From Opitutia bacterium (lineage in GTDB: Bacteria > Verrucomicrobiota > Verrucomicrobiia > Opitutales > UBA953): a stretch of 64,000 nt of DNA. A model generated the notes under the pieces. It worked only from the letters and a program-made list of their open reading frames with translations. It was not told the DNA's origin and did not search any database. Position numbers and translations under genes: made by a program. Of this stretch, positions 5,820 through 47,461 are shown in pieces; the stretch's first letter is position 1, and every line of letters starts with the position of its first letter. The stretch is from contig BGOM01000019.1 in NCBI GenBank assembly GCA_003569245.1, positions 1 to 64,000 on the forward strand, written 5' to 3'.

Positions 5820-5865
5820 GGCAGATTGGGGTGGAACGCGGGCCGTGTTCGGCTATCCCAAGGTC

Positions 5866-11400: not shown

Positions 11401-11736
11401 CCGCGCGCGATGCTCGACGACTTCTTCGGGGCGTTCGACTGCCCCGACGCCGGCCAACCTCAGCCGAAGCGCACCGCGTCGATCACGCCGCTGCAATCGC
11501 TCAACTTGCTCAACGGACGGTTCTCCCTCCAACGGGCGGACGCCCTCGCCGCGCGACTGCGCCGCGAGGCCGGCGATGACCCGGCGCGGCAGGCCGCCCA
11601 CGCCTTCGAGCTGCTGTTCCAGCGCCCGGCCGCCGCCGCGGAAATCGCCGAGTCCGCCCGCTTCATCACCGCGCAGGGCCTGCCCGCCTTCGCCCGCGCG
11701 CTGTATAACTCCAACGAATTCCTCCGCCTCGAATGA
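8461..11736 (+). CDS. Exported PSCyt1-DUF1549-DUF1553 cytochrome with discoidin-like insert
   Basis: 1091 residues with signal peptide ([20 protein letters not shown]). Domain order: PSCyt1 with heme motif C35-VE-C38-H39; DUF1549 from about 145, with a second CxxCH ([11 protein letters not shown], about residue 323); an inserted beta-rich region from about 385 to 725 whose second half ([20 protein letters not shown], then [13 protein letters not shown] and [13 protein letters not shown]) matches an F5/8-type C discoidin module; then DUF1553 from about 815 ([19 protein letters not shown]). The two heme sites suggest periplasmic electron transfer; the reaction is not established for this family. 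It overlaps the DUF1501 gene by 4 bases (ATGA). First member of the first cytochrome-DUF1501-FAD triad. Confidence 0.9.

Positions 11737-14940: not shown

Positions 14941-17705
<2,765 letters not shown>

Positions 17706-20122: not shown

Positions 20123-20130
<8 letters not shown>
17818..20130 (+). CDS. Exported PSCyt1-DUF1549-DUF1553 cytochrome (short form)
   Basis: 770 residues from ATG 17818. A strong AGAGGAGGA site at 17796-17803 is 14 bases away but only 5 from an in-frame TTG at 17809, so MVAMVRPAL... is a real alternative. Signal peptide ends near ACSATAAA. PSCyt1 heme motif in EQCFSCHGFD (about residue 37), DUF1549 with second heme motif [12 protein letters not shown], then DUF1553 (ENPLTARVIANRVWQAYFG) with no carbohydrate-binding insert between them, unlike the 8.5-kb and 30-kb homologues. 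It ends LLNLDETITRD, a normal family ending, and overlaps DUF1501 by 8 bases. Presumed periplasmic electron-transfer protein. Confidence 0.9.
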
Positions 20131-21559
<1,429 letters not shown>

Positions 21560-21730: not shown

Positions 21731-23002
21731 ATGCATCGTCGCCGCTTCATCCTCCGCTCCCTGGGAGCCTCGCTCGCCCTCCCGGGGCTATGCTCGCTCA
21801 GCGCGAAGGCCCTCAGCGGCAACCCCACCGTGCAGACGTCCAAGGGGGCCGGCATCGGCGCCCGCCGCTTCGTGGCGATCGGCAACCTGCTCGGCTACCA
21901 GACCAAGCAGCTCTTCCCGAAGACCGCCGGACGCGATTACGAAAAGACGACCTTGCTGGAGCCGGTCTGGGAGCAGCGCGAACGGATGACCGTCTTCCGC
22001 GGACTCGACCACGGGATCAAAGGCGGCCACTTCGCGGTGCACTCCTTCCTCTCCGGCGTGCTCAATTCCGAGGCGCAGAACCGTCCGGACGGCAACGTCT
22101 CGCTCGACCAGTTCCTGGCCGAGGAGATCGGCCACCAGACCCGCTTCCCGTCGCTCACCGTCGGTTCCGAAGGCGGTATCCACGGCGGCTGCCAGATCGC
22201 CTGGACCAAGGCCGGCGTGCGCGTCCCGCCGATCACCAACCCGGCCGAACTCTTCGACAAGCTCTTCGTCAGCGACTCCGCGGAGCGCCGCAAGCGCCGC
22301 GAACAGGACAACCGCGTGCAGGCCTCGATCCTCGACTCCGTGCGCGAGGAAGCGAAACGCCTGTCCGGCCAGGTCAACCAGGAGGACAAGGCCAAGCTCG
22401 ACGAATACTTCACCTCGGTCCGCGACGTGGAGAAGCGCCTCGAACTGCGCCAGCGCTGGACCCACCTCCCGAAGCCGACGGCGCCCTTCGGCAAGCCGGC
22501 CAACCGCAACCCGGTCGACGACCTGCCGCTGATGTACGAGCTGATCGCGCTCGCCCTGCAGACCGACAGCACCCGCATCGCCACGCTGGAGATCGGCGGC
22601 GACTTCCTGCCCCAGCATCTCGGCATCAAGAAGGACTACCACGGCCTCTCGCACCACGGCAACGATCCCGAGTCGATCGCCCACCTGATCAGCCTCGAGC
22701 GCTACCAGATCGCGCAGTATGGCAAGTTCGTGGGTCGCCTTGCGCAGCTGAACGACGGCGACGGCACCCTGCTCGACTCCACCACCGTGCTGTTCGGCAG
22801 CGGCATGGGCGACGCCAACTCGCACCGGAACTCCGACCTGCCGATCTTCCTCGCCGGCGGCGGCTACAAGCACGGCTCCTTCCGCGAAGTCTCGCGCGAG
22901 GTGAAGCACAAGGTGCCGCTCTGCAACCTCTACGTCGACATCGCCCAGAGGATGGGCGTCGAGACGGCGGCCTTCGGCAGCAGCACGGGGCGTTTCGCCT
23001 GA
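21731..23002 (+). CDS. Tat-exported DUF1552 protein
   Basis: 423 residues; MHRRRFILRSLGASLALPGL is a Tat-type leader. The rest is DUF1552 (PF07586), a family resembling DUF1501 in gene context and probably in fold: RFVAIGNLLGYQTKQLFPKT near 40, FRGLDHGIKGGHF near 95, YHGLSHHGNDPES near 300, TVLFGSGMGDANSHRNSDLP near 358. It is followed 18 bases later by a DUF1592-type cytochrome, the partner known for this family. Together they look like a second version of the DUF1501/DUF1553 pair, with the gene order reversed. No reaction is assigned. Confidence 0.9.
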   Translation: MHRRRFILRSLGASLALPGLCSLSAKALSGNPTVQTSKGAGIGARRFVAIGNLLGYQTKQLFPKTAGRDYEKTTLLEPVWEQRERMTVFRGLDHGIKGGHFAVHSFLSGVLNSEAQNRPDGNVSLDQFLAEEIGHQTRFPSLTVGSEGGIHGGCQIAWTKAGVRVPPITNPAELFDKLFVSDSAERRKRREQDNRVQASILDSVREEAKRLSGQVNQEDKAKLDEYFTSVRDVEKRLELRQRWTHLPKPTAPFGKPANRNPVDDLPLMYELIALALQTDSTRIATLEIGGDFLPQHLGIKKDYHGLSHHGNDPESIAHLISLERYQIAQYGKFVGRLAQLNDGDGTLLDSTTVLFGSGMGDANSHRNSDLPIFLAGGGYKHGSFREVSREVKHKVPLCNLYVDIAQRMGVETAAFGSSTGRFA

Positions 23003-23020
23003 GCCCGGCGCCCCGCGGTC

Positions 23021-25531
23021 GTGAGCCTGCTTCCGGCATTCCGCACCTGGGCGTCCCGCCGGCCGACCTGGCTGGCCGGGTCCGCGCTCCTGCTGGCCGG
23101 CTCCCTGCCCGCCGCCGAGACGCCCGCCAAACAGGTCGAGCAATTCCTCAGCCGCTACTGCCTGGAATGCCACGACGCCAAGGTCCATAAGGGCGACCGC
23201 AGTTTCGAACAGTTCGCGCTGCCGTTGAAGACCTTGCCGGCGGTGATCGAGGCGCGTGACATCATCGACCAGCTGACCCTGCGCGAGATGCCGCCCAAGA
23301 AGGCTGATCAGCCCACCGATGACGAACGCCTCGCCGCCATCCGCACCCTGCGCGCCGGCACCGCCGCGGCCGAGGTTTCGCTCCGGAGCACCGGCTCGCG
23401 GACGGTCCTCCGCCGGTTGTCCAACCGCGAGTACGAGAACACCCTCGCGACCTTGTTCGGCCGCCGCGTGGACACCCTGGGACTGACCGCCGACTTCCCG
23501 AAGGAAAAGACCGTCCGCCACCTGGACACGATCGGGCAGTCGCTGGTGACCTCCGGCTTCCTGGTCGACCAGTATTTCCTGGCTGCCAACCGCCTCGTCG
23601 AAACCCGCCTCGGCAAGCCGGCCACCGCGCCGCAGACCTGGCGGTTCAACAAGAATTTCATCCAGTACGAGGAGCTGCAAGGCTCGCACAAGAGCGCTTT
23701 CAACTTCCGCTACCTCAACCTTTACGAACAGCCGAACACCGACACCCGCCAGGGCGGCTACGGACACATCGAGGACTTCCGGCAGGGCGTACCGGTCTCC
23801 GGCCTCTACGACCTCGAGGTCGAGGCGACGGCCATGCATCGTGATACCCATTACGACCCCGCCATCTTCGGCATCGACCTCTCCGAGCCTTTCATCCTCG
23901 GCGTCGTGCCGGGCGATATCACCAAGGGCCACATCCATTACCCGCAGGCCATCGAACCCTTGCTCGCGAGCAGCGTGGTGCCCGACAACACGCCCACCCG
24001 CCTCAAGTTCCGCGTCTGGCTGGAGGCCGGCCAGACCCCGCGCTTCATCTTCCCGAACGGGCCGTACGAATCGCGCGCCTCGGTGATCACCATCAACAAG
24101 CGCTACGAGAAGGAGTTCTCGACGCCGGTCGGCTCCTCCGGCGTCGGCCGCTCGCACATCCTCCGGGAAGGCAAGCTGCCGCATATCCGCATCAGCGAGA
24201 TCGTCGTCCAAGGCCCCGTGGCCGAGCCGGCAGGCGGGGCCGAGGAGGTCGCTGTCTTCGGCCCGGAAGGCTTCCAGGCGGGGCGCGCCCTCGACCAGTT
24301 GTTCGCCTTCGCGACCAAGGCCTTCCGTCGCCCGCTGCAGGAGGCCGATCGCGCGCCCATCCGCAAGATGTACGCACAGCGGCTCGCCGAGCAAGCCAGC
24401 CCGCGACAGGCGGCGCTCGACGCGGTGAAACTCATCCTCTGCTCCCCTTCCTTCCTTTACCTGAGCGAGGTCACCCGGGAGGACGACCGTCGCCTGCGCC
24501 CGCATGACCTCGCCACGCGCCTCGCCTACGCCCTCTGGGCCACGCCCCCCGACGAGGCCCTCTTCGCCTCGGCGACCTCGGGCAAACTCACCGAGGACGC
24601 GGAGCTGAAAAGGCAAATCGACCGCCTGCTGGCCGACGCCAGGCTGGACGGCTTCATCGACGGCTTCCTGGATAGCTGGCTGAACCTTCGTGAGCTCGGC
24701 GGCATGCCGCCGCCCCGGGAGACGAACCGGGCCTACTATGCCGAGGACCTGCCGGCGTCGATGAAGACCGAGGTGCGCCTGTTCTTCCGTGACCTGCTCG
24801 CGTCGAACCGGCCGGTGACCCAGTTCCTGCGCGCGGACCACACCTTCGTCGACAAGAAACTCGCGAAGCTCTACGACCTGCCCGAACAGAAGACCCTGCG
24901 TCTGGCCGACGGTTTCCGGAAAGTCAGCCTCCAGGGCGACCCGCATCGCGGCGGCCTGCTCGGCATGGCAGCGGTGCTGACGGTCAGCGCCAACGGCGTC
25001 GAGACCTCGCCCGTCACCCGCGGCGCGTGGGTCAGCGAGAACATCCTCGGCATCAAGCCCCCGCCCCCGCCGGACGTCGTCCCGGCCATCGAACCGGACG
25101 TCAGCGGCGCGACCACGATCCGCGAGCGCCTCGCCAAACACCGCAACGACCGGGCCTGCGCCGAGTGCCATCGCAAGATCGACCCCCTCGGCTTCAGCCT
25201 GGAGTCCTTCGACCCGGTCGGTCGCTGGCGCGTGAATTACGCGAAGCCGAAGAAGGGCCCCGCGCCGAAGATCGACTCCTCGGGCGAGTTCGCCTCCGGC
25301 GAGACCTACCGGGACTTCGCCGGCTTCCGCGACATCCTGCACGACAAGCGCGAGGAGATGTTCACGCGCCACCTGATCCGCTCGCTCCTCGCCTACGGTA
25401 CGGGTCGCCTGATGGAGCCGGCCGACGAGTTCGCCGTCGACCGCATCTACGCGAAGGCGAAGGAAAAGGACCTCGGCCTGCGCGACATCGTGGTCGAATG
25501 CCTGACCAGCGACGTCTTCCGTTCCCGCTGA
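23021..25531 (+). CDS. Exported DUF1587/1595/1592/1588/1585 cytochrome
   Basis: 836 residues from a GTG start, leader WLAGSALLLAGSLPAAE. N-terminal heme motif in RYCLECHDAKVHKGD (about residue 47). Then DUF1587 (RRLSNREYENTLATLFGRRV), a beta-rich middle part, DUF1595/DUF1592 (AFRRPLQEADRAPIRKMYAQ and later FFRDLLASNRPVTQFL), DUF1588 (RGAWVSENILGIKPPPPPDV) with a second heme motif RACAECHRKIDPLG, and DUF1585 (RHLIRSLLAYGTGRLMEPAD). This is the full normal set. Two hemes and export imply electron transfer outside the cytoplasm, with the DUF1552 protein as partner. Confidence 0.91.
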   Translation: MSLLPAFRTWASRRPTWLAGSALLLAGSLPAAETPAKQVEQFLSRYCLECHDAKVHKGDRSFEQFALPLKTLPAVIEARDIIDQLTLREMPPKKADQPTDDERLAAIRTLRAGTAAAEVSLRSTGSRTVLRRLSNREYENTLATLFGRRVDTLGLTADFPKEKTVRHLDTIGQSLVTSGFLVDQYFLAANRLVETRLGKPATAPQTWRFNKNFIQYEELQGSHKSAFNFRYLNLYEQPNTDTRQGGYGHIEDFRQGVPVSGLYDLEVEATAMHRDTHYDPAIFGIDLSEPFILGVVPGDITKGHIHYPQAIEPLLASSVVPDNTPTRLKFRVWLEAGQTPRFIFPNGPYESRASVITINKRYEKEFSTPVGSSGVGRSHILREGKLPHIRISEIVVQGPVAEPAGGAEEVAVFGPEGFQAGRALDQLFAFATKAFRRPLQEADRAPIRKMYAQRLAEQASPRQAALDAVKLILCSPSFLYLSEVTREDDRRLRPHDLATRLAYALWATPPDEALFASATSGKLTEDAELKRQIDRLLADARLDGFIDGFLDSWLNLRELGGMPPPRETNRAYYAEDLPASMKTEVRLFFRDLLASNRPVTQFLRADHTFVDKKLAKLYDLPEQKTLRLADGFRKVSLQGDPHRGGLLGMAAVLTVSANGVETSPVTRGAWVSENILGIKPPPPPDVVPAIEPDVSGATTIRERLAKHRNDRACAECHRKIDPLGFSLESFDPVGRWRVNYAKPKKGPAPKIDSSGEFASGETYRDFAGFRDILHDKREEMFTRHLIRSLLAYGTGRLMEPADEFAVDRIYAKAKEKDLGLRDIVVECLTSDVFRSR

Positions 25532-30080: not shown

Positions 30081-33000
30081 ATGCGTAAGCCCTGCCTGGC
30101 GCTCCTGCCTTTCCTGATGAACTCGGCCTTCGCCGCCGACTCGTCGAGTTCAACCGCGACATCCGTCCGGTGCTCGCGGACAACTGCTTCCACTGCCACG
30201 GTCCCGACCCCGGCACCCGCAAGGCGGGCCTGCGGCTCGACACCGAGGCCGGCTTCTTCGCCGCGCGCAAGGACAAGGACGGCAAGGAGGAGCCGCCGAC
30301 GATCATCAAGGGCAAGCCGGACCAGAGCACGCTTTACCGCCGCCTGCTCTCCAAGGACGAGGATGAGGTCATGCCGCCGCCGGAGACGCATAAGAAACTG
30401 AAGCCGGAACAGATCGCCCAGATCAGGAGTTGGATCGAACAAGGCGCCCCTTGGCAGCCGCACTGGTCCTTGCTGCCCCCCGTCGCGGTTACCCCGCCCA
30501 CGCCCAAGAACGCCGGCTGGGCCAAGAACCCGATCGACCGGTTCGTACTCGCCCGGCTCGAAAAGGCCGGCCTCGCGCCCGCGCCCGAGGCGGATGCCCG
30601 CACCTTGATCCGACGCCTGTCCCTCGATGTGACGGGCCTGCCGCCCTCCCCAGAACTGCTGGCGAAGCATCTGCCCAAGGACGGCGAGAGGCTCTCCGAC
30701 GGCCAGGTCGGCGCCTTGGTCGATGAGCTGATGGCCTCGGCGGCCTACGGCGAGCACCGCGCCCGCTACTGGCTCGACGCCGCCCGCTACGCGGACTCGC
30801 ACGGCCTCCACTTCGACAACCCCCGCGAGATGTGGCCTTACCGCGACTGGGTCGTGAAGGCCTTCAACGCCAACCAGCCGTTCGACCAGTTCACGGTCGA
30901 GCAGATCGCGGGCGACCTGCTGCCGAACCCGACCGAGTCGCAGCTGATCGCCACCGGCCTCCAGCGTTGCAACGTCACCACCAACGAGGGCGGCACGATC
31001 GTCGAGGAGAACCTCGCCAACTACGCGGCCGACCGCGTGCAGACGATGGGCTGGGTCTACTTCGGGCTCACGACCAACTGCGCGCAGTGTCACGACCACA
31101 AGTTCGACCCCATCACGACAAAGGACTTCTACTCGCTGGCGGCCTTCTTCCGCAACACCACGCAACCAGGGCTCGATGGCAACGTGAAGGATGGCCGCGG
31201 CCCGGTCATCTACCTGCCCTCGGACGCCGACCGGCCCCGCTTCAAGGCCCTGCCGGCCGAGATCGAGACGGCCAAGAAGTCGGCCCAGGAGACCCGCGCC
31301 CTCGCCCAGAAGGATTTCGACGGCTGGCTGGCCAAACTCAAGCCGGCCGACCTCGAGCAGGACATCCCGACCAAGGGACTGCTGGGCCGCTTCGCCCTCA
31401 ACGAAGGCAACGGCACCCCCGCCCAGACCCGGGCGACCGGCCCGCTCACCTGGACCAAGGACGGACAGCTCGGCCCGGCGCTCGCGCTGAAGAAGGGCGC
31501 CAACCTCGAGCTCGGGGAGGCCGGCAACTTCGACACCAAGAAGCCCTTCACCGTCGGCGGGTGGTTCCGTCCGGCCAGGTTGCAGGGCACCCAGGCGCTC
31601 GTCGCCCGCATGGACGACCCCAAGGCCGCGCAAGGCTGGTCCCTGTTCCTCGCCAACGCCAACTACGGCTTCTACCTGATCAGCCAGTGGCCCGACGACG
31701 CCATCAAGGTGACGACCGCGAAGCCCCTGGCCAAGAAGGACACCTGGCAGCACGTGCTCCTGACCTATGACGGCAGCGGCAAGGCCGAGGGTATCCGTCT
31801 TTACGTGGACGGCGCGATGGTCCCCCTCAACCTCGAGGTCAACAAGCTCCGGACCGCCAGCCAGTCGAAGACTCCCACCCGCCTCGGCCAGCGCAGCGCC
31901 AGCGAGTTCTTCGAAGGCTCCGCGCAGGAGGTCCGCTTCTATGGGCGCGACCTGAGCGGTGCCGAGGCCTTCGCCCTCGCCAAGGTCGACGGGGTTCGCG
32001 CGAAGGTCGCCGGTAAGCTCGCCGGCAAGGACCGGGCCGCCGTGCTGGACTACTACCTGGGGGTGCGCCGGCCTGACGTGCTGGCGATCGCGAATCGCCA
32101 GACCACCCTCGAGGCGGAGTTCAAGGCGATCCAGGCGCGCAGCCCGCTCACGCATATCCAGGAGGAGCGCAAGGACATGATGCCGATGGCCAGCATCCTG
32201 CTGCGCGGCGCTTACGACAAGCCAGGCGAGAAGGTGGCCGCCGAGATCCCCGCGGCCCTCGGCAAGCTGCCCGCCGACGCCCCGAAGAACCGCCTGGGGC
32301 TCGCCCGCTGGCTGGTCAGCGAGCAGAACACCTTGACCGCGCGCGTCACCGTCAATCGCCTCTGGCAGGAAGTGTTCGGCCAGGGCCTCGTGAAGACCTC
32401 CGAGGACCTCGGCATCATGGGGATGCCGCCGACGCACCCCGAGCTGCTCGACTGGCTCGCCGTCGAGTTCCGCCGGACCGGCTGGAACGTCAAAGGCTTC
32501 CTGCGCCTGGTCCTGACCTCGGCGACCTACCGCCAAGCGGCGATCCAGACCAAGGAAAAGATCGAGAAGGACCGCGATAACAGCCTGCTGAGCCGCGGCC
32601 CTCGCTTCCGCATGGATGCCGAGATGATCCGCGACCAGGCCCTGGCGGCCAGCGGCCTGCTCGCCACCCGCATGGGCGGACCCGGCACCAAGCCCTATCA
32701 GCCCGAGAACATCTGGGAAGTCGTCGGCGTCGGCATCCAGGCCTACCGGCCCGACAAGGGCGAGAACCTCTACCGGCGCTCGCTTTACAACTACTGGCGG
32801 CGCATGGCCCCGCCCGCCAGCCTCGACCTGTTCAACGCGCCGTCGCGCGAGGTGAGCTGCGTGCGCCGCGACCGCACCAACACCCCGCTTCAGGCGCTCG
32901 TGACGCTCAACGACCCGCAATACGTCGAGGCCGCGCGCCTCCTGGCCCAGCGCACCCTGCTCGGGGCCAAGGACGATGGCTCCCGTCTCCAGACCGCGGC

Positions 33001-33223
33001 CCTGCGCGTGCTGGCCCGCCCGCTGAAGCCCGCCGAGCTCGGTATCCTGCAGGCCAGCCTCGCCCAGCTCCGCGCCCACTATGCCAAGCAGGTCGCCGAC
33101 GCCGACGCCCTGCTCAAGGTCGGCGACACCCCGCCCGACCCCGCCCTGCCCAAGCCGGAGCTCGCCGCCTGGACGATGCTCTGCAACCAACTCCTCAACC
33201 TGGACGAAGTCCTCAACAAATAA
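30081..33223 (+). CDS. Exported PSCyt1-DUF1549-LamG-DUF1553 cytochrome (frameshifted near start)
   Basis: Signal peptide MRKPCLALLPFLMNSAFAAD starts at ATG 30081, but that frame fails after about 30142. The next frame carries VEFNRDIRPVLADNCFHCHG, which is the expected PSCyt1 start, and runs intact to 33223. One missing base near 30142 explains it; without it, translation could only start at internal codons lacking a signal. Total about 1047 residues: heme motif CFHCH, DUF1549 with [11 protein letters not shown], a LamG-type concanavalin domain (about nt 31380-31980, KKPFTVGGWFRPARLQGTQA), then DUF1553. Second triad with DUF1501 and FAD oxidoreductase; 4 bases to DUF1501. Confidence 0.88.
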
Positions 33224-33227
33224 GCCC

Positions 33228-34673
33228 ATGTCCATCCTCCACGAGTGGAACAACCTCCAGACCCGCCGCCGCTTCCTCGGTCGCGGAGCCAACGTCCTCG
33301 GCGCCGCGGCTCTGACGTCGCTGCTCGGACGCTCGCTGGCCCACGCGGCCCCGGGGGCCATGAGCACCCAGCACCTCCCCAAGGCCAAGCGCGTCATCTA
33401 CCTCCACATGGTGGGCGGCCCCGCCCAGATGGACCTGTTCGACCATAAGCCCGGCATGCAGGCGATGTTCGACAAGGACCTGCCGCCCAGCATCCGCAAC
33501 GGCCAGCGGCTCACGACGATGACCAGCGGCCAGGCCCGCTTCCCGATCGCCCCGTCCAAGTATAAGTTCAGCCCGGCCGGCAAGTGCGGGATGTGGATGA
33601 ACACCGAACTCCTGCCGAACCTCGCGAAGAGCGCCGATGACATCTGCTGGATGCGCTCCCTCAACACCGAGGCGATCAACCACGAGCCGGCCATCTGCGC
33701 CATGCAGACGGGCAATCAGATCGCCGGCCGACCCTGCCTGGGCTCCTGGGCCTCTTACGGGCTGGGCTCGGGCAACGACAACCTGCCCTCCTTCGTGGTG
33801 CTGATCGCCACGCCGACGAACCGCGACCAGGAACAGGCGATCTCCAGCCGCCTCTGGTCCAGCGGCTACCTGCCGGGCGAGCACGCCGGGGTCTCCTTCC
33901 GCAGCAAGGGCGACCCGATCCTGTTCATCAACAACCCGCCCGGCGTGCCCGACGACCTGCGCAAGCAGACCATCGACGGCATCAACCAGCTCAACCGGCT
34001 CAACTACGAGGCGGTGGGCGACCCCGAGACGCACACGCGCATCAAGCAGTACGAGATGGCGTTCCGCATGCAGGCGAGCGTGCCCGAACTGACCGACCTG
34101 GCCAAGGAGCCGGAGCATGTCTTCAAGCTCTACGGCGAGGAGGCCCGCAAGCGCGGGAGCTTCGCCAACAGCGTGCTGATGGCCCGCCGGCTCGTCGAGC
34201 GCGGCGTCCGCTTCGTCCAGATCTACCATAACAACTGGGACCACCATTCCAACGTCAACGGCCGCATGCCCAGCCAGTGCCGCGACGTCGACCAACCCTG
34301 CCATGCGCTCATCGAGGACCTCAAGCAGCGCGGCATGTTCGACGACACGCTCATCATCTGGGGCGGCGAGTTCGGCCGCACCATCTACAGCCAGGGCGGT
34401 CTCTCCAAGGACAACTACGGCCGTGACCACCACCCGCGCTGCTTCTCCATGTGGATGGCCGGCGGCGGCGCCAAGGGCGGCCAGATCTACGGGGAGACCG
34501 ACGAGTTCAGCTACAACATCGTCAAGGACCCGCTGCCGATCCGCGACCTGCACGCGACCGTCCTCCACCTGCTCGGCTACGACCACGAGCGCTTCACCTA
34601 CAAGTACCAGGGGCTCGACCAAAAGCTGACCGGCGTCCTCCCCTCCAAGGTCGTCAAGGCCCTCGTCGCCTGA
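33228..34673 (+). CDS. Tat-exported DUF1501 protein
   Basis: 481 residues from ATG 33228, chosen because the frame upstream mirrors the cytochrome. Leader NNLQTRRRFLGRGANVLGAA has the Tat motif RRRFL. DUF1501 signatures AKRVIYLHMVGGPAQMDLFD, YHNNWDHHSNV, IIWGGEFGRTIYS and GRDHHPRCFSMWMAGGGAKG are all present. No formylglycine site. It sits between cytochrome and FAD oxidoreductase with gaps of 4 and 5 bases, so the three are certainly co-transcribed. Confidence 0.93.
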   Translation: MSILHEWNNLQTRRRFLGRGANVLGAAALTSLLGRSLAHAAPGAMSTQHLPKAKRVIYLHMVGGPAQMDLFDHKPGMQAMFDKDLPPSIRNGQRLTTMTSGQARFPIAPSKYKFSPAGKCGMWMNTELLPNLAKSADDICWMRSLNTEAINHEPAICAMQTGNQIAGRPCLGSWASYGLGSGNDNLPSFVVLIATPTNRDQEQAISSRLWSSGYLPGEHAGVSFRSKGDPILFINNPPGVPDDLRKQTIDGINQLNRLNYEAVGDPETHTRIKQYEMAFRMQASVPELTDLAKEPEHVFKLYGEEARKRGSFANSVLMARRLVERGVRFVQIYHNNWDHHSNVNGRMPSQCRDVDQPCHALIEDLKQRGMFDDTLIIWGGEFGRTIYSQGGLSKDNYGRDHHPRCFSMWMAGGGAKGGQIYGETDEFSYNIVKDPLPIRDLHATVLHLLGYDHERFTYKYQGLDQKLTGVLPSKVVKALVA

Positions 34674-34678
34674 GCCTG

Positions 34679-36736
34679 ATGTGGCGCGCGTGCTGCCTCG
34701 CCCTCCTGGCCGTCCTCCCGCGACCGGCCCGGGCCGGGGAGGCCGACGTCATCGTCTACGGCGCGACGCCCGGGGGCTTCTGCGCCGCCATCGCGGCGGC
34801 CCGGGAAGGCGCCAAGGTCATCCTGCTCGAGCCGACCGCGCATCTCGGCGGACTCAGCACCGGCGGGCTCAGCCACTGCGATTCCAACCAGATGCGCCGG
34901 GAAACCCTCACGGGCCTCTTCGAGGAATGGCATGCGCGGATCGCGCAGGACTATGTCGCCCGCGGCCGACCGGCCCCGTACGACCCGAAGGACAAGACCC
35001 CCGGGATCCGTTGGGTCTTCGAACCGAGCGTCGCGAGCCGCGTCACCCGGGGGATGCTTAAGGAGGCCGGCGTCACCGTCATCACCGGTTGCTCCCTGCG
35101 GACGGTGGAAAAATCCGGGCCCCGGATCACCGCGCTGCGGACGACCCAAGGCTCCTTCGCGGCCCGGGTCTTCGTCGACGGCACCTACGAGGGCGACCTG
35201 ATGGCCGCCGCCGGCGTCTCTTGGGTCATCGGGCGAGAGAGCCGCGCGGAGCACGGTGAGTCCCTCGCCGGCAAACAGTACCCTAAGCCGGCGATGAAGG
35301 TAAACGGACTCGACGCGGCGGGCCGGCCGCTGCCGCTGATCACCGGCACGGACGCGGGCCCCGACGCGGCGGGCGACGGTCATGTGATGACTTTCAGTTT
35401 CCGGCTCTGCCTCACCCGCGACCCGGCCAACCGGGTGCCGATCCCTGAGCCGAAGAACTACGACCCGGCGAGATTCGAACTGGCCCGTCGTGCGCTCCAG
35501 GCCGGCATCCGCGGAGTCGGCTTCGACCTGTACCCGCTACCCGGCAACAAGCTTGACGGTAACAACTCCATCCACGGTCAGGTCTCGCTGGGACTCGTGG
35601 GCGGAAGCGACTCGTGGCACAGCGCGGACGAGACGGAACGCGCCCGGATCTGGGAGGAGCACCGGCAGTACACCCTCGAATTCCTCCGCTTCCTGCGGAC
35701 CGACCCGGCCGTGCCCGCCAAACTGCGGGCCGACTACGCCTCGCTGGGGTTCTGCCAGGATGAGTTCACCGAGACCGGACACTTCCCGCCGGCGCTCTAC
35801 GTCCGCGAATCCCGGCGCCTGCAGGGCCTCTATGTCCTGACACAGAAAGACATCCTCGAGTCACCGCGCAAGGAAGACCCGGTTGCGATTTCCTCCTTCC
35901 CGATCGACTCACACGATTGCCAGCGCGTGGTCCGGCCCGACGGCAGCGTCATCAATGAGGGTACCATCCTGCCCGTCCGGGTGCCGCAGACCGGCGTCGG
36001 CTACGCTTACCAAGTGCCTTACCGCGCCCTCTTGCCCAAGCCCGGGCAGTGCGCCAACCTCCTCGTACCGGTCGCGCTCGGCAGCACGCACGTCGCCATG
36101 TCCTCCCTGCGCATCGAAGGCGCCTGGATGGCCATTGGGCAGGCCGCGGGGGTCGCCGCCGCCCTTACCGCCCGCGGCGACCGCCCCGTGCAGGACCTGC
36201 CTTACGCCGAGTTGCGCGCGCGGCTGCTCGCCCAAGGGCAGACGCTGGAACTGCCGGCCGCGCCCGCCCGCAAGCCGACCCCGCCGGCCGGCCCCAAGGC
36301 TCCCGCGACGGCTTCCACGAACCTCACCTTGGACGACCAGGACGCTGAACTCACGGGCCGCTGGACCCGCTCCACGACCTTCAAGCCGCATGTCGGCCAG
36401 GGCTACCTACATGATGAGCGGCACGCGGACGGAAAATCCCGGGCCGTCTTCCGTTTCAAAGCACCGGCGGACGGCGAGTTCGACCTGCGCATGGCCTACT
36501 CCGCCCACCCCACGCGTGCGCAACGCCTGCCCGTGACCGTGAGCGGCGAAGGTACCGAGCAGCGCTTAGTCGTCGACCAGACCCTCCCCCTGCCCGGCGG
36601 CGAGACCTTCCGCAGCATCGGTCGGCTCCGCCTGCGCCAAGGCGCCGACTACGTGCTCACCGTCGTCAACGACGGCGGGCCGGGCTTCACCATCCTCGAC
36701 GCCTTCGAGCTGCGACCGGCACCCGCCGGCCGCTGA
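34679..36736 (+). CDS. Secreted FAD-dependent oxidoreductase with golvesin-like C-terminal domain
   Basis: 685 residues from ATG 34679, 5 bases after DUF1501. MWRACCLALLAVLPRPARA is a signal peptide. The FAD_oxidored core begins ADVIVYGATPGGFCAAIAAA, continues with HLGGLSTGGLSHCDSNQ, FVDGTYEGDLMAAAGVSW, and ends with LGSTHVAMSSLRIEGAWMAI and GQAAGVAAAL, the flavin-binding cap near the C-terminus of the core. After a Pro/Ala linker, residues 550-685 form a beta-sandwich like the golvesin or CBM-like tail of xanthan-lyase-type proteins. It should oxidise a carbohydrate; electrons may go to the neighbouring cytochrome. Homologous to the frameshifted gene at 13.2 kb. Confidence 0.88.
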   Translation: MWRACCLALLAVLPRPARAGEADVIVYGATPGGFCAAIAAAREGAKVILLEPTAHLGGLSTGGLSHCDSNQMRRETLTGLFEEWHARIAQDYVARGRPAPYDPKDKTPGIRWVFEPSVASRVTRGMLKEAGVTVITGCSLRTVEKSGPRITALRTTQGSFAARVFVDGTYEGDLMAAAGVSWVIGRESRAEHGESLAGKQYPKPAMKVNGLDAAGRPLPLITGTDAGPDAAGDGHVMTFSFRLCLTRDPANRVPIPEPKNYDPARFELARRALQAGIRGVGFDLYPLPGNKLDGNNSIHGQVSLGLVGGSDSWHSADETERARIWEEHRQYTLEFLRFLRTDPAVPAKLRADYASLGFCQDEFTETGHFPPALYVRESRRLQGLYVLTQKDILESPRKEDPVAISSFPIDSHDCQRVVRPDGSVINEGTILPVRVPQTGVGYAYQVPYRALLPKPGQCANLLVPVALGSTHVAMSSLRIEGAWMAIGQAAGVAAALTARGDRPVQDLPYAELRARLLAQGQTLELPAAPARKPTPPAGPKAPATASTNLTLDDQDAELTGRWTRSTTFKPHVGQGYLHDERHADGKSRAVFRFKAPADGEFDLRMAYSAHPTRAQRLPVTVSGEGTEQRLVVDQTLPLPGGETFRSIGRLRLRQGADYVLTVVNDGGPGFTILDAFELRPAPAGR

Positions 36737-36745
36737 GGCGATGCG

Positions 36746-37504
36746 TCACTTCGGCGGCGGCAGGTAACGCGCCAGATCACGCATCGCGATCACCTGGCAA
36801 CCGGCCTCCTTAAGCGCCGCCACGTAAGCCTCGAACTTGGCCGGGTCGGTATTGACCCAAGGATGACGGATATCCGGCACCCCGTGGAAGGTGATCACGG
36901 CGACCTTACCGTCGCGCGCCTGGGCGATGGCCGCCTTGAACTGCGCCAAGGTGCTGTCCGGCTTACCATCGAACACCTGCGGCAAGGTCAACGGGTCGTC
37001 CTTCGCCGGGTCGAAGACCCGTGCCCCGCCCGCCCGGGCGAAACGGTAACCCCGCTCGCGGAGCACCACCGTTGCCGCCGGGCTGGTCGCATAACCCGGA
37101 TAAGAAAACGTCGTCGGCTTCGGGATGCCATGCTCGGCGCAACGTTGCTCGATGTGCGCGAGGTCCGCCGCGATCTCCGCCGGCTTCTGGCCATTCACGC
37201 CTTTATGGGCCCGCGTGTGGTTACCGATCTCAAAGCCTGCCTCATGCATCGCCTTGATCTGGGCCCAGGTCAGGTAGTGCGTCTTGTCCTGCAGGAACTC
37301 GAAGCCCTCGGTGATGTAGAAGGTCGCCCCGAAACCATGCTTCTTCAGCAAAGGGGCCACGAACGTCGCGTGACTGGCCACGGAGTCATCGAAGGTCAGG
37401 ACCACGAGCCCGTCGGGAATCCGGGCGGCCGGGGCGGCCTCCGTGGCCGGCAGAACCGAGGTCCCAAGGGCAAGGAGGGCCAGGCAAAGCGGGGGGAGGC
37501 GCAT
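36746..37504 (-). CDS. Secreted polysaccharide deacetylase (NodB, CE4-type)
   Basis: 252 residues with leader MRLPPLCLALLALGTSVLPA. NodB motifs: VVLTFDDS (catalytic base and metal Asp), EIGNHTRAHKG (metal His pair), FSYPGYATS (motif 3) and VITFHGVPD near the C-terminus. It removes N- or O-acetyl groups from polysaccharide outside the cytoplasm. It is the only leftward gene in the long rightward run, converging on the FAD oxidoreductase with a 9-base gap and diverging from the next cytochrome across a 105-base region. Confidence 0.88.
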   Translation of the reverse strand: MRLPPLCLALLALGTSVLPATEAAPAARIPDGLVVLTFDDSVASHATFVAPLLKKHGFGATFYITEGFEFLQDKTHYLTWAQIKAMHEAGFEIGNHTRAHKGVNGQKPAEIAADLAHIEQRCAEHGIPKPTTFSYPGYATSPAATVVLRERGYRFARAGGARVFDPAKDDPLTLPQVFDGKPDSTLAQFKAAIAQARDGKVAVITFHGVPDIRHPWVNTDPAKFEAYVAALKEAGCQVIAMRDLARYLPPPK

Positions 37505-37609: not shown

Positions 37610-40069
37610 ATGCCCATGCGCCTGCGTCCCGAACTCCTTGCCCTCCTCGCGCTCCCCTTGGCTTCGGCCCAGGAGACGGTCGATTTCGGCCGGCAGATCC
37701 GCCCCATCCTATCCGAGAACTGCATCGCCTGCCACGGACCCGACGAGAAAGCCCGCAAGGCCAAGCTGCGCCTGGACGACGAGGCCTCCGCCAAGTCCGA
37801 CCGAAAGGGCGATATCGCGATCGTCCCGGGCAAGCCCGAGGCCAGCTCGCTCATCCAACGCATCGAGTCCAAGGACCCCGAGGAGGTCATGCCGCCGCCC
37901 AAGCAGCACAAGACGATCGCGCCCGAACAGCTCGCGCTGCTGAAGACCTGGATTCGCCAGGGGGCGAAATGGGGCAAGCATTGGTCCTACGAGCCGGTGG
38001 CCGCGGTCAAGGTCCCCGCGAACGGCGAAGCCAACCCGATCGACGCCTTCCTGCTCGAGCGTCTCCGGCGCGAGAAACTCGCCTTCTCCGCCCGCGCCGA
38101 CCAAGCCCTCCTGATCCGCCGCACGGCCCTCGACCTGACCGGACTGCCGCCGACCCCGGCGGAACTCGAGCGTTTCGCCCGCGCCCCGCAAGCGCAGGTG
38201 GTCGACCACTACCTGGCGCAGCCGGCTTTCGGTGAGCACTGGGCTCGTGGCTGGCTGGACCTCGCCCGCTACGCCGATAGCGCCGGCTACCCTAGCGACC
38301 CGGGCCGCTCGATCTGGGCCTACCGCGACTGGGTCATCCGCGCCTACAACGCCAACCTGCCCTTCGACCGCTTCACCATCGAGCAGCTGGCCGGCGACCT
38401 GCTGCCGGAACCCACCCAGGACCAGCTCATCGCCACGGCCTTCCACCGCAACACGATGACACAGAACGAGGGTGGCACCAGCGACGAGGAATTCCGCACG
38501 GCCGCCGTCATCGACCGCGTCAACACCACGTACGCGGTCTGGATGGGCACCACGATGGCTTGCGCCCAGTGCCACACGCACAAGTACGACCCGATCACCA
38601 TCACCGAATACTTCCGCTCCTACGCCTTCCTGAACCAGACGGCCGACTCCGACAAGGGCGACGAACGCCCGACGATGGAGATCCTCACGCCCGAGCAGAA
38701 GGCGGCCCGCGCGGACCTGCAGAAGCGCGCCGCCGCCGCGGAGACCGCCTTGGCCACCGTGCGTCCGGAATGGCTGAAGGGCTTCGACGCCTGGCTCGCG
38801 ACCAAGGCCAACATCGCCGAGAAGAAGGTCGCGGCGATTTTCGCTCTCCCGAAGGAGAAGCGCAACGCGGGCCAGACCAGGCAGCTCCAGGACTATTACG
38901 TGCGCAACGTCGCGCCGGAGACCAAGGCCGAGCGCGAGGCCGCGGCCCAGCTCAAGCAGCAGCTGGCCGCGCTGAAGCCTCCGACCGTACCGGTCCTGCA
39001 GGAACTCCCCGCGGCCCAGCGACGCAAGACGTTCGTCCAACTGCGCGGCAACTGGCAGGCCCTCGGCGAGGAGGTCAGCGCGGCCGTGCCCGCCGCCTGG
39101 CACTCCTTCCCCGAGAAGGCCCCCGTCAATCGCCTCGGCTTCGCCCAGTGGTTGGTCAGCCCGCGCAACCCCTTGACCGCCCGCGTGCAGGTCAACCGCC
39201 TCTGGGAGACCGTCTTCGGCGTGGGCATCGTCCGGAGCAGCGAGGAGTTCGGCAGCCAAGGCGACCTCCCCGTGCACCCTGAGCTGCTCGACTGGCTGGC
39301 CGGGGAGTTCGTCCGCAGCGGCTGGGACACGAAGCACATGCTTCGGCTGATGTTCACGAGCCGGGCCTACCAGCAGACGTCCGCCAGCGATCCCGCCCTC
39401 AACGAGCGCGACCCGGACAACCGCCTCCTGGCCCGCGGCCCGCGTTTCCGCCCATCCGGTGAACTGCTGCGCGACCAGGCCCTCGCCGTCGCCGGACTGC
39501 TCAGCAGCAAGATGTACGGGCCGCCCGTGCGCCCGATGCGCCCGGCCTCGGGCCTGACCGCGGCTTTCGGCGGCAGCAACGACTGGACGACGAGCCCCGG
39601 CGAGGATGCCCGCCGGCGCAGCGTCTACACGGACACGCGCCGCAACAGCCCCTACCCGAGCTTCACGACGTTCGACGCCCCGAACCGGGAGACATGCACG
39701 CTCCGCCGCGGTCGCTCCAACACGCCGCTGCAGGCCTTCGTTACCTTGAACGACCCCGTCTTCGTCGAGGCCAGCCAGGGCCTCGCTCGTCGCGTGCTCA
39801 AGGAAGGCCCGAAGGATACCGCCGGTCGCCTACAGCTGGCCTACCGTCTCTGCGTCGCCCGCGGAGCCGACCCGCAGGAGCTCAAGGCTTTGGAGACCTT
39901 GCTGCAACGCTCCCTGACCACCTACCGAGCCGACCCCGCCCTGGCCGCCAAGATGGCGACCCAGCCGATCGGAGCCGCCGACAAAGGCGCCGACCTCGCC
40001 GAGCTGGCCGCGTGGACGGCGGTCGCGAGCGTGGTGATGAACCTCGATGAATTCCTGATGCGTCGCTGA
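37610..40069 (+). CDS. Exported PSCyt1-DUF1549-DUF1553 cytochrome
   Basis: 819 residues from ATG 37610 (a second ATG at 37616 gives an equally good leader, MRLRPELLALLALPLASAQ). PSCyt1 heme motif ENCIACHGPDEKARKAKLRL, DUF1549 with ACAQCHTHKYDP as second heme motif (Thr-His instead of the usual Asp-His after the CxxCH), a short helical linker, and DUF1553 (RNPLTARVQVNRLWETVFG). There is no carbohydrate-binding insert. Its own promoter probably lies in the region shared with the divergent deacetylase. It is followed after 2 bases by DUF1501. Confidence 0.91.
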   Translation: MPMRLRPELLALLALPLASAQETVDFGRQIRPILSENCIACHGPDEKARKAKLRLDDEASAKSDRKGDIAIVPGKPEASSLIQRIESKDPEEVMPPPKQHKTIAPEQLALLKTWIRQGAKWGKHWSYEPVAAVKVPANGEANPIDAFLLERLRREKLAFSARADQALLIRRTALDLTGLPPTPAELERFARAPQAQVVDHYLAQPAFGEHWARGWLDLARYADSAGYPSDPGRSIWAYRDWVIRAYNANLPFDRFTIEQLAGDLLPEPTQDQLIATAFHRNTMTQNEGGTSDEEFRTAAVIDRVNTTYAVWMGTTMACAQCHTHKYDPITITEYFRSYAFLNQTADSDKGDERPTMEILTPEQKAARADLQKRAAAAETALATVRPEWLKGFDAWLATKANIAEKKVAAIFALPKEKRNAGQTRQLQDYYVRNVAPETKAEREAAAQLKQQLAALKPPTVPVLQELPAAQRRKTFVQLRGNWQALGEEVSAAVPAAWHSFPEKAPVNRLGFAQWLVSPRNPLTARVQVNRLWETVFGVGIVRSSEEFGSQGDLPVHPELLDWLAGEFVRSGWDTKHMLRLMFTSRAYQQTSASDPALNERDPDNRLLARGPRFRPSGELLRDQALAVAGLLSSKMYGPPVRPMRPASGLTAAFGGSNDWTTSPGEDARRRSVYTDTRRNSPYPSFTTFDAPNRETCTLRRGRSNTPLQAFVTLNDPVFVEASQGLARRVLKEGPKDTAGRLQLAYRLCVARGADPQELKALETLLQRSLTTYRADPALAAKMATQPIGAADKGADLAELAAWTAVASVVMNLDEFLMRR

Positions 40070-40071
40070 CC

Positions 40072-41541
40072 ATGAGCCACCCCCACCTTCATCCGGTCCG
40101 CGAGGCGCAACTGCGCCTCCAGACGCGCCGCCAATTCCTGAGCAGCGCCGGCCAGTTCAGCCTCGGCGCCATCGCCCTGCAGGCGCTCTCGGGCGACACG
40201 CTCGCGGCCGCCACCCAACCCGAGAATCCCCTCGCCCCGCGACGCCCCCCGCTCAAGGCCCGGGCCAAGCGCGTCATCTACCTGCACATGTCGGGCGGCC
40301 CGCCCAACCTCGACATCTTCGACCCGAAACCGGCCTTGGTGCAGCACAACGGCCAGCCCTGCCCGGACTCCTTCCTGAAGGGCCGGACCTTCGCCTTCAC
40401 GAGCGGCGTGCCCAAGCTCATGGGCTCGCCGCGCACCTACAAGCAGTACGGCAAGGGCGGGCTGTGGATGAGCGACGCGGTGCCGAATTTCCAGACGGTG
40501 GCCGACGACGTGACGCTCCTGCGCGCGATGCATACGGACCAGTTCAACCACGCGCCGGCCGAGCTGCTGCTCTTCACGGGCCACGCCCGCCAAGGTCGCC
40601 CCTCGCTGGGCTCCTGGGCCACCTACGGCCTGGGCACGGAGAACCAGGACCTCCCCGGCTTCGTCACCCTGATCTCCAGCGGCACCCAGCCCAGCGGCGG
40701 TCAAGGTTGCTGGGGCAGCGGCTTCCTGCCCTCGGTGTACCAGGGCGTGCAGTGCCGCAGCAAGGGCGACCCGGTCCTCTTCGCCAACGATCCGCCTGGC
40801 ATGACCCGCGACCTGCGCCGGGCCACGCTCGACGCGCTCAAGGACCTCAACCAGCGCCAGCAGGACGAATTGGGGCATGCCGAGACCGTCACCCGCATCG
40901 CCCAGTACGAGCTGGCATTCCGCATGCAGACGAGCGTGCCCGACGTCATGGACATCTCCAAGGAGTCCGCCGCGACGCTCGAGGCCTACGGCGCCAAGCC
41001 GGGCGAGGCGAGCTTCGCCAACAACTGCCTGCTGGCCCGCCGCCTCGTCGAGAAAGGCGTCCGCTTCGTCCACCTGTTCGACTGGGGCTGGGACTTCCAC
41101 GGGACCAACCCGCGCGAGGACATCCGCGATGGCCTCACCAAGAAGATGGCCGCGACGGACAAGCCCGCGGCGGCCCTCATCAAGGACCTCAAGCAGCGCG
41201 GCCTCCTCGATGACACCCTCATCGTCTGGGGCGGGGAATTCGGCCGGACGCCGTTCCGCGAGGGCCGCACTTCCGGCGGTTCGGTGCTGGGGCGCGACCA
41301 CTACCCGGACTGCTTCTCGATCATGCTGGCGGGCGGCGGGGTGAAGGGCGGCTTCTCCTTCGGGGAGACCGACGAGATGGGCTTCGCGGGCGTGAAGGAC
41401 AAGGTGCACGTGCACGACCTGCAGGCGACGATCCTCCACCTGCTCGGCTTCGACCACGAACGCCTGACCTACCGGTTCCAAGGACGCGATTACCGTCTGA
41501 CCGACGTCCATGGCGAGGTCGTCAAGGCCGTCCTGGCCTGA
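40072..41541 (+). CDS. Tat-exported DUF1501 protein
   Basis: 489 residues, ATG 2 bases after the cytochrome stop. Leader LRLQTRRQFLSSAGQFSLGA carries the Tat motif. DUF1501 hallmarks: AKRVIYLHMSGGPPNLDIFD, FDWGWDFHGTNP, IVWGGEFGRTPFR, GRDHYPDCFSIMLAGGGVKG. No sulfatase cysteine. As at 20.1 kb, no FAD oxidoreductase follows; instead an FG-GAP repeat protein comes after a 68-base gap. Confidence 0.93.
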   Translation: MSHPHLHPVREAQLRLQTRRQFLSSAGQFSLGAIALQALSGDTLAAATQPENPLAPRRPPLKARAKRVIYLHMSGGPPNLDIFDPKPALVQHNGQPCPDSFLKGRTFAFTSGVPKLMGSPRTYKQYGKGGLWMSDAVPNFQTVADDVTLLRAMHTDQFNHAPAELLLFTGHARQGRPSLGSWATYGLGTENQDLPGFVTLISSGTQPSGGQGCWGSGFLPSVYQGVQCRSKGDPVLFANDPPGMTRDLRRATLDALKDLNQRQQDELGHAETVTRIAQYELAFRMQTSVPDVMDISKESAATLEAYGAKPGEASFANNCLLARRLVEKGVRFVHLFDWGWDFHGTNPREDIRDGLTKKMAATDKPAAALIKDLKQRGLLDDTLIVWGGEFGRTPFREGRTSGGSVLGRDHYPDCFSIMLAGGGVKGGFSFGETDEMGFAGVKDKVHVHDLQATILHLLGFDHERLTYRFQGRDYRLTDVHGEVVKAVLA

Positions 41542-46672: not shown

Positions 46673-47461
46673 ATGCGCCCCCTGCTGCCCCTCCTGGCCG
46701 TCGTGCTCTCCCTGCCCGTCTTCGCCCAGGACGGCTTCACGCCGCTCTTCAACGGCAAGGACCTCTCGGGCTGGGACGGCGAGCCCGGTCTCTGGAAAGT
46801 CGAGGAAGGCGTGATCGTCGGCACGAGCGAGGTCGGCAAACCGAAGACAAACTCCTTTCTCATCTGGAACGGCAAGGTGAAGGACTTCGAGCTGCGCGCC
46901 ACGATCAAGGTCGTCGGTGACAACAACTCCGGCGTGCAATACCGCAGCCGCCGCCTGCCGGAGGTGACGCCTTGGACCATCCTCGGCTACCAATGCGACG
47001 TCCATCCGACCGACGTCCATACGGCGATGACCTACGAGGAACGCGGCCGCGGCATCTTCGGCTACAACGGCGTCGACGTGGTCATGGATCCGTCGGGCCA
47101 GCGCTGGCAGGTCGGCGAACGCCCGCGCGTGCAGGCCGACATCGCCCACTACAACGAGTTCACGGTCATCGCCCGCGGCAATCGGCTCGAGCACAAGGTC
47201 AACGGCCAGACGACCTCGGTCTTCATCGACCACGACGAGAAGAACCGCGCCCTCGAAGGCCTCATCGCCATCCAGCTTCACGCCGGCAACCCGCATAAGA
47301 CTTACGTGAAGCAGGTCCTGCTCAAGGTCCTCGAAGACGGGCCGGTCCTGCCCTTCGACCAGGCCACCCTCCCCGCGGGCTCCAGGAAAATCGACAAGCC
47401 CAAGGTCGTCAGCGCCCAGGGCAAGAACCCGCCCGCCAAGAAGGCTCCGGCCACGAAGTGA
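46673..47461 (+). CDS. Secreted 3-keto-disaccharide hydrolase domain (DUF1080) protein
   Basis: 262 residues, leader MRPLLPLLAVVLSLPVFAQ. The DUF1080 fold occupies nearly all of it: FTPLFNGKDLSGWDGEPGLW at the start, KDFELRATIKVVGDNNSGVQ, YQCDVHPTDVH, HYNEFTVIARGNRLEHKVNG and ALEGLIAIQLHAGNPHKTYV. This is the single-domain short form of the family, which hydrolyses 3-keto-glycosides. A Lys/Pro/Ala tail ends it. It sits between the propeller lipoprotein and a sulfatase with gaps of 8 and 4 bases. Confidence 0.91.
   Translation: MRPLLPLLAVVLSLPVFAQDGFTPLFNGKDLSGWDGEPGLWKVEEGVIVGTSEVGKPKTNSFLIWNGKVKDFELRATIKVVGDNNSGVQYRSRRLPEVTPWTILGYQCDVHPTDVHTAMTYEERGRGIFGYNGVDVVMDPSGQRWQVGERPRVQADIAHYNEFTVIARGNRLEHKVNGQTTSVFIDHDEKNRALEGLIAIQLHAGNPHKTYVKQVLLKVLEDGPVLPFDQATLPAGSRKIDKPKVVSAQGKNPPAKKAPATK

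Follow-up and report, generated by a model that had tools for sequence, protein, structure and literature searches.

A secreted PF12831 flavoprotein repeatedly joined to cytochrome–DUF1501 gene pairs in one genus of the Opitutia

The stretch of DNA analysed here, called the window throughout, comprises the first 64,000 nucleotides of contig BGOM01000019.1 (C19:1-64000, forward strand) from an Opitutia bacterium of the order Opitutales (assembly GCA_003569245.1), whose draft genome of 2.45 Mb lies on 24 contigs and is 91.3% complete. Twice in this window the same three genes follow one another on the plus strand, encoding an exported two-heme cytochrome of the PSCyt2 kind, a Tat-exported DUF1501 protein and a secreted FAD-dependent oxidoreductase of family PF12831. 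A first-pass annotation had described both triads in this order, and gene calls and Pfam matches bear it out. Our comparison with the rest of the genome and with related loci indicates that the conserved unit is the cytochrome–DUF1501 pair and that the flavoprotein is an optional addition to it, which appears to have been acquired several times within the genus of this bacterium. The genes of the two triads are the following.

8461..11736, plus strand: triad 1 cytochrome with PSCyt1, PSCyt2 (DUF1549), an F5/8 type C insert and PSD1 (DUF1553) (Pfam)
11733..13181, plus strand: triad 1 DUF1501 protein with an RR (Tat-type, twin-arginine) N-terminus (Pfam, E 4.5e-141)
13229..14862, plus strand: triad 1 secreted FAD-dependent oxidoreductase, no Golvesin domain (PF12831)
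30081..33223, plus strand: triad 2 cytochrome with PSCyt1, PSCyt2, Laminin_G_3 and PSD1 (Pfam)
33228..34673, plus strand: triad 2 DUF1501 protein with an RR (Tat-type) N-terminus and a sulfatase-like fold in its model (Pfam, Foldseek)
34679..36736, plus strand: triad 2 secreted FAD-dependent oxidoreductase with a C-terminal Golvesin domain (PF12831; PDB sequence match)

Both flavoproteins pass the Pfam cut-off for PF12831, that of triad 2 with 353 bits over profile positions 1-416 and that of triad 1 with 288 bits over positions 22-416, its start lying in another frame; the triad 2 protein has a hydrophobic start ahead of the FAD-binding stretch. Neither the DUF1501 proteins, the cytochromes nor the triad 1 flavoprotein gave a match in NCBIfam, where the triad 2 flavoprotein matched with short FAD-binding stretches far below the cut-offs. 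The spacing of a few bases described in the first pass holds for triad 2 and for the triad 1 cytochrome and DUF1501 genes, which overlap by 4 bases, while the gap between the triad 1 DUF1501 gene and its flavoprotein is 47 bases if translation starts at ATG 13229. Each triad contains a one-base frame change. In triad 1 it lies near 13375, between ATG 13229 and the later frame of the flavoprotein gene, of which an unbroken relative, 99% identical, is found in locus L136; in triad 2 it affects the cytochrome, with the signal peptide read from ATG 30081 and the main frame from 30170, and unbroken relatives are present in loci L091 and L148. Since split PSCyt2 matches also occur elsewhere in the genome (two pieces each on contigs C2, C11 and C23), gene decay and an error of assembly are equally likely in both cases.

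The pair of cytochrome and DUF1501 protein is the constant part of these loci. The genome contains 24 DUF1501 matches, 21 of them over the cut-off, and 26 PSCyt2 matches, and a separate PSCyt2 match lies on the same strand within 5 kb of each of these 21 genes, with the cytochrome first in 19. All four pairs of the window are directly adjacent; on contig C7 a pair is interrupted by another gene. Two CXXCH motifs, one in PSCyt1 and one in PSCyt2, are present in the four PSCyt2-type cytochromes of the window (at residues 35 and 323 in triad 1) and in 21/21 aligned cytochromes. The distance matrices of the two partners correlate with r 0.79 in a Mantel comparison of the 16 pairs whose long matches lie near each other, a value not reached in any of 5000 permutations, and the trees of the two partners, drawn for the pairs of this genome, agree on where the triad pairs are placed. 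Judged from sequence and gene order, the conserved unit is thus a two-gene module of an exported two-heme cytochrome and a Tat-exported DUF1501 protein whose members co-evolve. In both trees the triad 1 pair groups with a pair at C6:22268 and the triad 2 pair with one at C11:72377, and both groupmates are without a flavoprotein. The triads are therefore not sisters and were, on this sequence comparison, assembled separately rather than copied from a single triad. This fits the earlier view that they are no recent duplication: their DUF1501 proteins are 37% and their cytochromes 29% identical, and the accessory domains differ as described, with F5/8 type C in one cytochrome, Laminin_G_3 in the other and Golvesin in the second flavoprotein alone.

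The remaining pairs of the window illustrate the module without the flavoprotein. Two further cytochrome–DUF1501 pairs (17818-21559 and 37610-41541) have none behind them, and a pair of a second kind, built from DUF1552 and a PSCyt3-type cytochrome, occupies 21731-25531.

17818..20130, plus strand: third cytochrome (PSCyt1/PSCyt2/PSD1), two CXXCH, of a pair without flavoprotein (Pfam)
20123..21559, plus strand: DUF1501 partner of the third cytochrome (Pfam)
21731..23002, plus strand: DUF1552 protein of the second pair kind, a DUF1501 homologue (Pfam; profile comparison, probability 94%)
23021..25531, plus strand: PSCyt3-type cytochrome (DUF1587/1592/1588/1585/1595), two CXXCH, partner of the DUF1552 protein (Pfam)
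37610..40069, plus strand: fourth cytochrome, two CXXCH, no flavoprotein behind its pair (Pfam, gene call)
40072..41541, plus strand: DUF1501 partner of the fourth cytochrome (Pfam)

How often the flavoprotein joins such pairs was counted from both sides. The genome has 13 PF12831 matches, six of them strong (at least 184 bits), and three of these six genes lie within 1.5 kb of a same-strand pair, compared with 1.2% of random places; the other three stand away from any pair. The same test gave 4/36 for sulfatases and 3/23 for DUF1080 matches, partial rows (2 of 38 and 1 of 24, respectively) being left out. Within 1.5 kb, a flavoprotein accompanies five of the 21 pairs and is the next gene in three of them; the remaining 16 pairs have none. 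Two of the five are the pairs of the triads. Another is the fourth pair of the window, which follows the triad 2 flavoprotein at a distance of about 0.9 kb with a gene on the opposite strand in between, and the last two, on C11, stand on either side of a single flavoprotein. Within the genus, 117 flavoprotein rows were found in 61 genomes (5 in our own genome and one shared with a draw from the phylum), and of the other 111 places the 61 best were selected and 60 of these examined. The genus share is biased upward by this selection, and many of the 59 flavoprotein rows so obtained are close relatives of each other. Among them, 31 stand beside a cytochrome–DUF1501 pair, 5 beside DUF1552 and 15 beside neither, with 8 not classifiable.

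These adjacencies fall into separate lineages of the flavoprotein, three of them beside cytochrome–DUF1501 pairs and one beside a DUF1552 pair. The most elaborate arrangement is a conserved operon in the order cytochrome, DUF1501, alpha/beta hydrolase (esterase), flavoprotein, cytochrome, DUF1501, DUF1080. Its gene set is complete in all 15 loci with at least 5 kb of upstream and 6 kb of downstream sequence, and the order is kept in 14, the exception being L130, where the DUF1080 gene lies ahead of the second pair. The hydrolase was assigned to PF07859/BD-FAE in L102, an extra beta-lactamase-like gene precedes the flavoprotein in five of the loci, and contig C11 of our own genome shows the same order with an apparently broken hydrolase gene. 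The operon flavoproteins form one clade with a support of 100 in a quick IQ-TREE analysis of 49 rows; the idea that two different flavoproteins had replaced one another in this slot, suggested by a FastTree tree that split them into two non-sister clades, was dropped on this result. DUF7133 matches stand divergently in front of the operon in 11 loci. In five other loci of the genus (L118, L119, L120, L125 and L128) the flavoprotein follows DUF1552, and a PSCyt3-type cytochrome precedes DUF1552 in all four of the DUF1552–flavoprotein loci where this is visible. Sequence comparison thus reveals a conserved operon and a parallel PSCyt3–DUF1552–flavoprotein triad next to the two triads of the window. 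The DUF1552–PSCyt3 pair of the window itself has no flavoprotein, and its gene order is opposite to that of these relatives.

The relatives of the two window flavoproteins differ in their surroundings. In 8/12 genus loci with triad 2 relatives (L088-L099) a gene of 248-262 amino acids lies upstream of the flavoprotein, and in the five of these where DUF1501 and the flavoprotein are both visible it separates the two, so that the 5-base spacing seen in the window is a local state. The window lacks this gene between DUF1501 and the flavoprotein. Its product (for example L091:4675-5460, plus strand, and L095:13046-13789, minus strand) is secreted and has no Pfam match; a distant relationship to DUF1080 was considered and dropped at a profile comparison probability of 6%. 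A lipoprotein-like gene of 400 amino acids, likewise without a Pfam match (L095:5577-6776, minus strand), follows the flavoprotein and precedes an FG-GAP protein in 6/6 loci of the triad 2-type branch L094-L099. Among seven loci with relatives of the triad 1 flavoprotein, three have a pair or DUF1501 upstream, three have none within 6.6 to 7.6 kb of flank and one is not classifiable.

Several other genes of the window bear on how the triads may be read.

5845..6849, plus strand: protein of the 3-keto-disaccharide hydrolase family DUF1080, upstream of triad 1 (PF06439)
14941..15363, plus strand: Fur-family regulator after the triad 1 flavoprotein (Fur assigned from the L136 relative, PF01475, matched in the window)
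15399..17705, plus strand: catalase/peroxidase KatG behind triad 1 (PF00141; NCBIfam PRK15061 and cat_per_HPI over cut-off)
36746..37504, minus strand: polysaccharide-deacetylase-like gene separating the fourth pair from the triad 2 flavoprotein (sub-threshold NCBIfam matches of HfsH/PdaB type)
46673..47461, plus strand: second DUF1080 protein (PF06439)

Every called gene from 2588 to the end of the window is on the plus strand except 36746-37504, and most of them have signal-peptide-like starts. The island contains sulfatases, DUF1080 proteins, esterases and one Pect-lyase-like gene (Pfam). Together with the sugar-binding-type domains in the cytochromes and the second flavoprotein and with the DUF1080 gene of the genus operon, this upholds the sugar context proposed in the first pass. 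The host is a polysaccharide degrader, and its genome has matches to COX1 and to haem c assembly proteins. The KatG of the window has an in-frame N-terminal extension resembling a signal peptide, which the proteins of L142 and L136, beginning at MSDISK, do not have. A DUF7133 protein with one CXXCH is encoded at 53276-55792. Matches of equal score on separate contigs (C12:4655-5857/C5:110518-111720, C18:2201-2806/C23:73796-74401 and C13:1525-2427/C24:182983-183885) may be repeats or assembly duplicates of the draft genome.

DUF1501 had been taken as an uncharacterised partner; given its predicted structure, it is not wholly so. The AlphaFold2 model, built from 22 sequences, is of moderate quality (pLDDT 72.9, pTM 0.75). 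In Foldseek, 78 solved structures matched it with an E of 0.001 or below, the best with E 1.9e-5 and a probability of 1.00, and the 50 listed of these 78 are all sulfatases, phosphonate or phosphate ester enzymes and their kin, by title or established classification; the TM-scores are low, at about 0.35. The sequence profile points weakly to this superfamily as well (best E 0.002), and Pfam places DUF1501 in the alkaline phosphatase/sulfatase superfamily. Within the limits of a moderate model, these matches support an alkaline phosphatase/sulfatase fold for DUF1501. The conserved stretch D..LKqRGllddTlvIwggEFGR aligns with the sulfatase stretch containing the D-H-G motif, with E381-F382-G383 standing over that motif and E381-F382 invariant in 22/22 sequences. 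D338, H340 and H401 are conserved as well. The conserved Asp-His/Asn metal ligands of an SDHG-type motif were not found in DUF1501, where the motif reads GEFG: the likeness to sulfatases is one of fold, the difference is that D-H is replaced by E-F, and a plain sulfatase activity is unlikely because EFG stands over the D-H-G motif. DUF1501 and DUF1552 are themselves related, with a profile comparison probability of 94% and an E of 1.3e-7 over 363 columns, a comparison in which the signal region was included and one alignment had five rows. The PSCyt3–DUF1552 pair thus resembles the PSCyt2–DUF1501 pair in its two-part build, its homologous partner and the flavoprotein family that follows it in the five genus loci, and differs in its cytochrome domains. 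The model of the cytochrome (pLDDT 80.1) is almost entirely helical and matches nothing in the PDB with an E of 0.001 or below.

The flavoprotein can be compared with two known kinds of electron-transferring flavoenzyme. Flavocytochrome c3 fumarate reductases carry their haems on the same chain as the flavin. Enzymes of this type (1qjd, 1y0p and others, over about 58 residues) are among the solved structures closest to the flavoprotein's FAD-binding start, a likeness which says nothing about the substrate. Both arrangements place a flavin next to c-type haem; the flavocytochrome is a reductase and not a sugar dehydrogenase, and here the haem is on a separate protein, no cytochrome domain being found by Pfam in the two window flavoproteins. 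The C-terminal domain of the triad 2 flavoprotein resembles the final part of a xanthan lyase (6f2p, E 1.1e-7), which hints that this domain may bind polysaccharide.

LacABC, the second system, passes its electrons to the respiratory chain, and its catalytic subunit is of the GMC family. The two window flavoproteins belong to PF12831, with no GMC-family match listed by Pfam; the candidate catalytic protein is thus of another family, and the cytochrome is of the PSCyt kind. Work on Caulobacter (PMC9007349) has connected DUF1080 with 3-keto sugars and with the dehydrogenase LacABC, and the part of that paper available to us contains no mention of DUF1501. The likeness lies in an extracytoplasmic sugar oxidation with DUF1080 encoded nearby: a DUF1080 gene belongs to the operon in 15/15 loci and lies upstream of triad 1, and none is directly beside triad 2.

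In Verrucomicrobia, the gene for PSCyt2 was found beside a constant gene family of unknown function (He et al. 2017, PMC5615132). As far as that source is open to us, it shares with our loci a PSCyt plus PSD cytochrome, a constant neighbour, carbohydrate-binding-module-type domains and sulfatases nearby, and differs in having no flavoprotein as a third gene, the word FAD being absent from the main text. The same paper reports that in freshwater Verrucomicrobia the density of PSCyt genes is inverse to that of glycoside hydrolases. In the searchable main text the term DUF1501 is missing, and indexed counts give DUF1501 and DUF1552 three mentions each. For Rhodopirellula baltica, 41 copies of each domain are given in the accessible part of PMC2754498. 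The literature within reach of our search, with supplements and most subscription journals lying outside it, does not report any flavoprotein as an addition to such pairs. The pair is thus already known but unexplained, and the joined flavoprotein is the added feature.

We tentatively favour, at somewhat less than an even chance, the reading in which the flavoprotein is a sugar dehydrogenase that uses flavin, an optional partner docking on the cytochrome pair and working much as LacABC does together with DUF1080. The flavoprotein would most likely oxidise a glycan or glycoside outside the cytoplasm, and the module's cytochrome would take over the electrons of the flavin and deliver them to a respiratory chain ending at cytochrome oxidase. 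Where the conserved operon is present, the DUF1080 protein encoded after the second pair would split the keto product. The substrate, an oxidation at C3, the transfer of electrons and the part played by DUF1501 are elements of this scheme that we infer. It retains part of the first-pass interpretation, in which the flavoprotein oxidises a sugar and hands electrons to the cytochrome, and this interpretation is partly supported overall. The idea of one fixed three-gene unit has to be given up, considering the 16 pairs without a flavoprotein, the three strong flavoproteins away from any pair and the rarity of the association outside the genus.

This rarity heads a series of observations that weigh against the docked dehydrogenase. 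In the phylum draw, a relative of the triad 2 flavoprotein was found at 1e-30 in 32/144 genomes, giving 61 rows outside our own genome that are covered by 57 loci holding 60 flavoprotein rows; two of these rows stand beside a pair, 50 do not and 8 are not classifiable. One of the two is from the same genus and the other (L052) has a cytochrome match alone beside the flavoprotein, which leaves 1/51 adjacent outside the genus, with about 0.09 expected from DUF1501 density over 57 places. A set from named genomes (80 best of 577 loci, 76 new rows, counted as outside the genus though their kinship is not given) had 4 rows beside a pair, 57 not and 15 not classifiable, with two of the rest near DUF1552 or PSCyt3. 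Pair-adjacent flavoproteins outside the genus thus amount to 5/112 classifiable rows. DUF1501 is present in 38/39 of the named genomes tested, mostly with at least 36 candidates each, so the four adjacencies may be near chance; 4/61 gives a p between 0.0009 and 0.045 at assumed rates of 0.7 and 2.2%. Base rates in Planctomycetota are bounds, as at most 36 candidates were scored per genome. No pair was found beside the flavoprotein in the loci of Pedobacter, Micromonospora and Emticicia, and some flavoprotein-bearing genomes have no DUF1501 match at all (5/32 at 1e-20, 1/39 at 1e-60). The counts in our own genome do not by themselves settle the link, since Fisher's test gives p 0.048 against sulfatases and 0.083 against DUF1080. 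Three of the 31 genus adjacencies (L088, L103 and L104) exist only across an opposite-strand gene, the solved relatives of the flavoprotein match mainly its FAD-binding start and C-terminal domain, and the triad 1 flavoprotein lineage keeps Fur and/or KatG downstream (7/7 loci) more constantly than the pair upstream (3/6 with enough flank).

Such figures could be explained by co-location without coupling. Pair and flavoprotein would both be common parts of sulfatase/DUF1080 islands, made neighbours by rearrangement, with the order kept by inheritance in the genus. The many pairs without a flavoprotein, the sulfatases and DUF1080 genes that also lie beside pairs, the low adjacency outside the genus, the single origin of the operon and the gene of 248-262 amino acids upstream of the triad 2-type flavoproteins would all be expected on such a view. 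It accounts less well for three flavoprotein lineages beside DUF1501 pairs and one beside a DUF1552 pair within one genus, and for a random expectation of just 1.2% in our own genome; we consider it rather unlikely. The flavoprotein stands beside a pair more often than random places do in this genome (3/6) and is found there in many rows of the genus (31/59); elsewhere such adjacency is rare. Within the genus we regard the link as real; what is observed is an association tied to one lineage, whose underlying pair was known before and is unexplained.

The constancy of Fur and KatG behind the triad 1 lineage would also suit a flavoprotein that is an oxidase using O2 and making hydrogen peroxide, which the products of these neighbours would handle, the cytochrome not being the acceptor. 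Fur and KatG were not seen beside the operon or the triad 2 lineages. A periplasmic location of KatG, considered as a sign of external peroxide, was weakened by the absence of the N-terminal extension in the two relatives checked, and a cytoplasmic KatG, as these relatives suggest, would not meet peroxide made outside. An oxidase seems improbable to us. More doubtful still is the proposal that the pair itself is a polysaccharide-active enzyme, peroxidase-like or acting by oxidative cleavage, with the flavoprotein processing the released sugars or feeding electrons to it. The sugar-binding-type domains inserted between DUF1549 and DUF1553 in two window cytochromes, the occurrence of most pairs without a flavoprotein and the inverse relation to glycoside hydrolase density mentioned above would be compatible with such an enzyme, and the lack of a recognised enzyme fold in the cytochrome model argues against it. 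We know of no activity for the cytochrome–DUF1501 pair.

A wider proposal can also be made, which we regard as rather unlikely as it stands. In Planctomycetes and Verrucomicrobia, the two homologous modules, PSCyt2–DUF1501 and PSCyt3–DUF1552, would serve secreted enzymes in general as docks that accept their electrons. The exported DUF1501 or DUF1552 partner would be a sulfatase-fold protein with a rebuilt metal site that couples a client or its glycan to the haems, and the PF12831 flavoproteins would be one class of client, a new extracytoplasmic sugar dehydrogenase family feeding DUF1080. A single genome of the Planctomycetes or Verrucomicrobia can encode tens of such cytochromes (the present one has 21 pairs) with no proven function in the literature accessible to us, and general docks of this kind, if true, would explain such numbers. 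The homology of DUF1501 and DUF1552 and their sulfatase-like build with a changed metal motif may guide experimenters in their search for a role of the exported partner. A flavoprotein that has repeatedly been joined to the module in one genus would provide a concrete idea of what these pairs do, namely that they accept electrons from the oxidation of sugars outside the cell.

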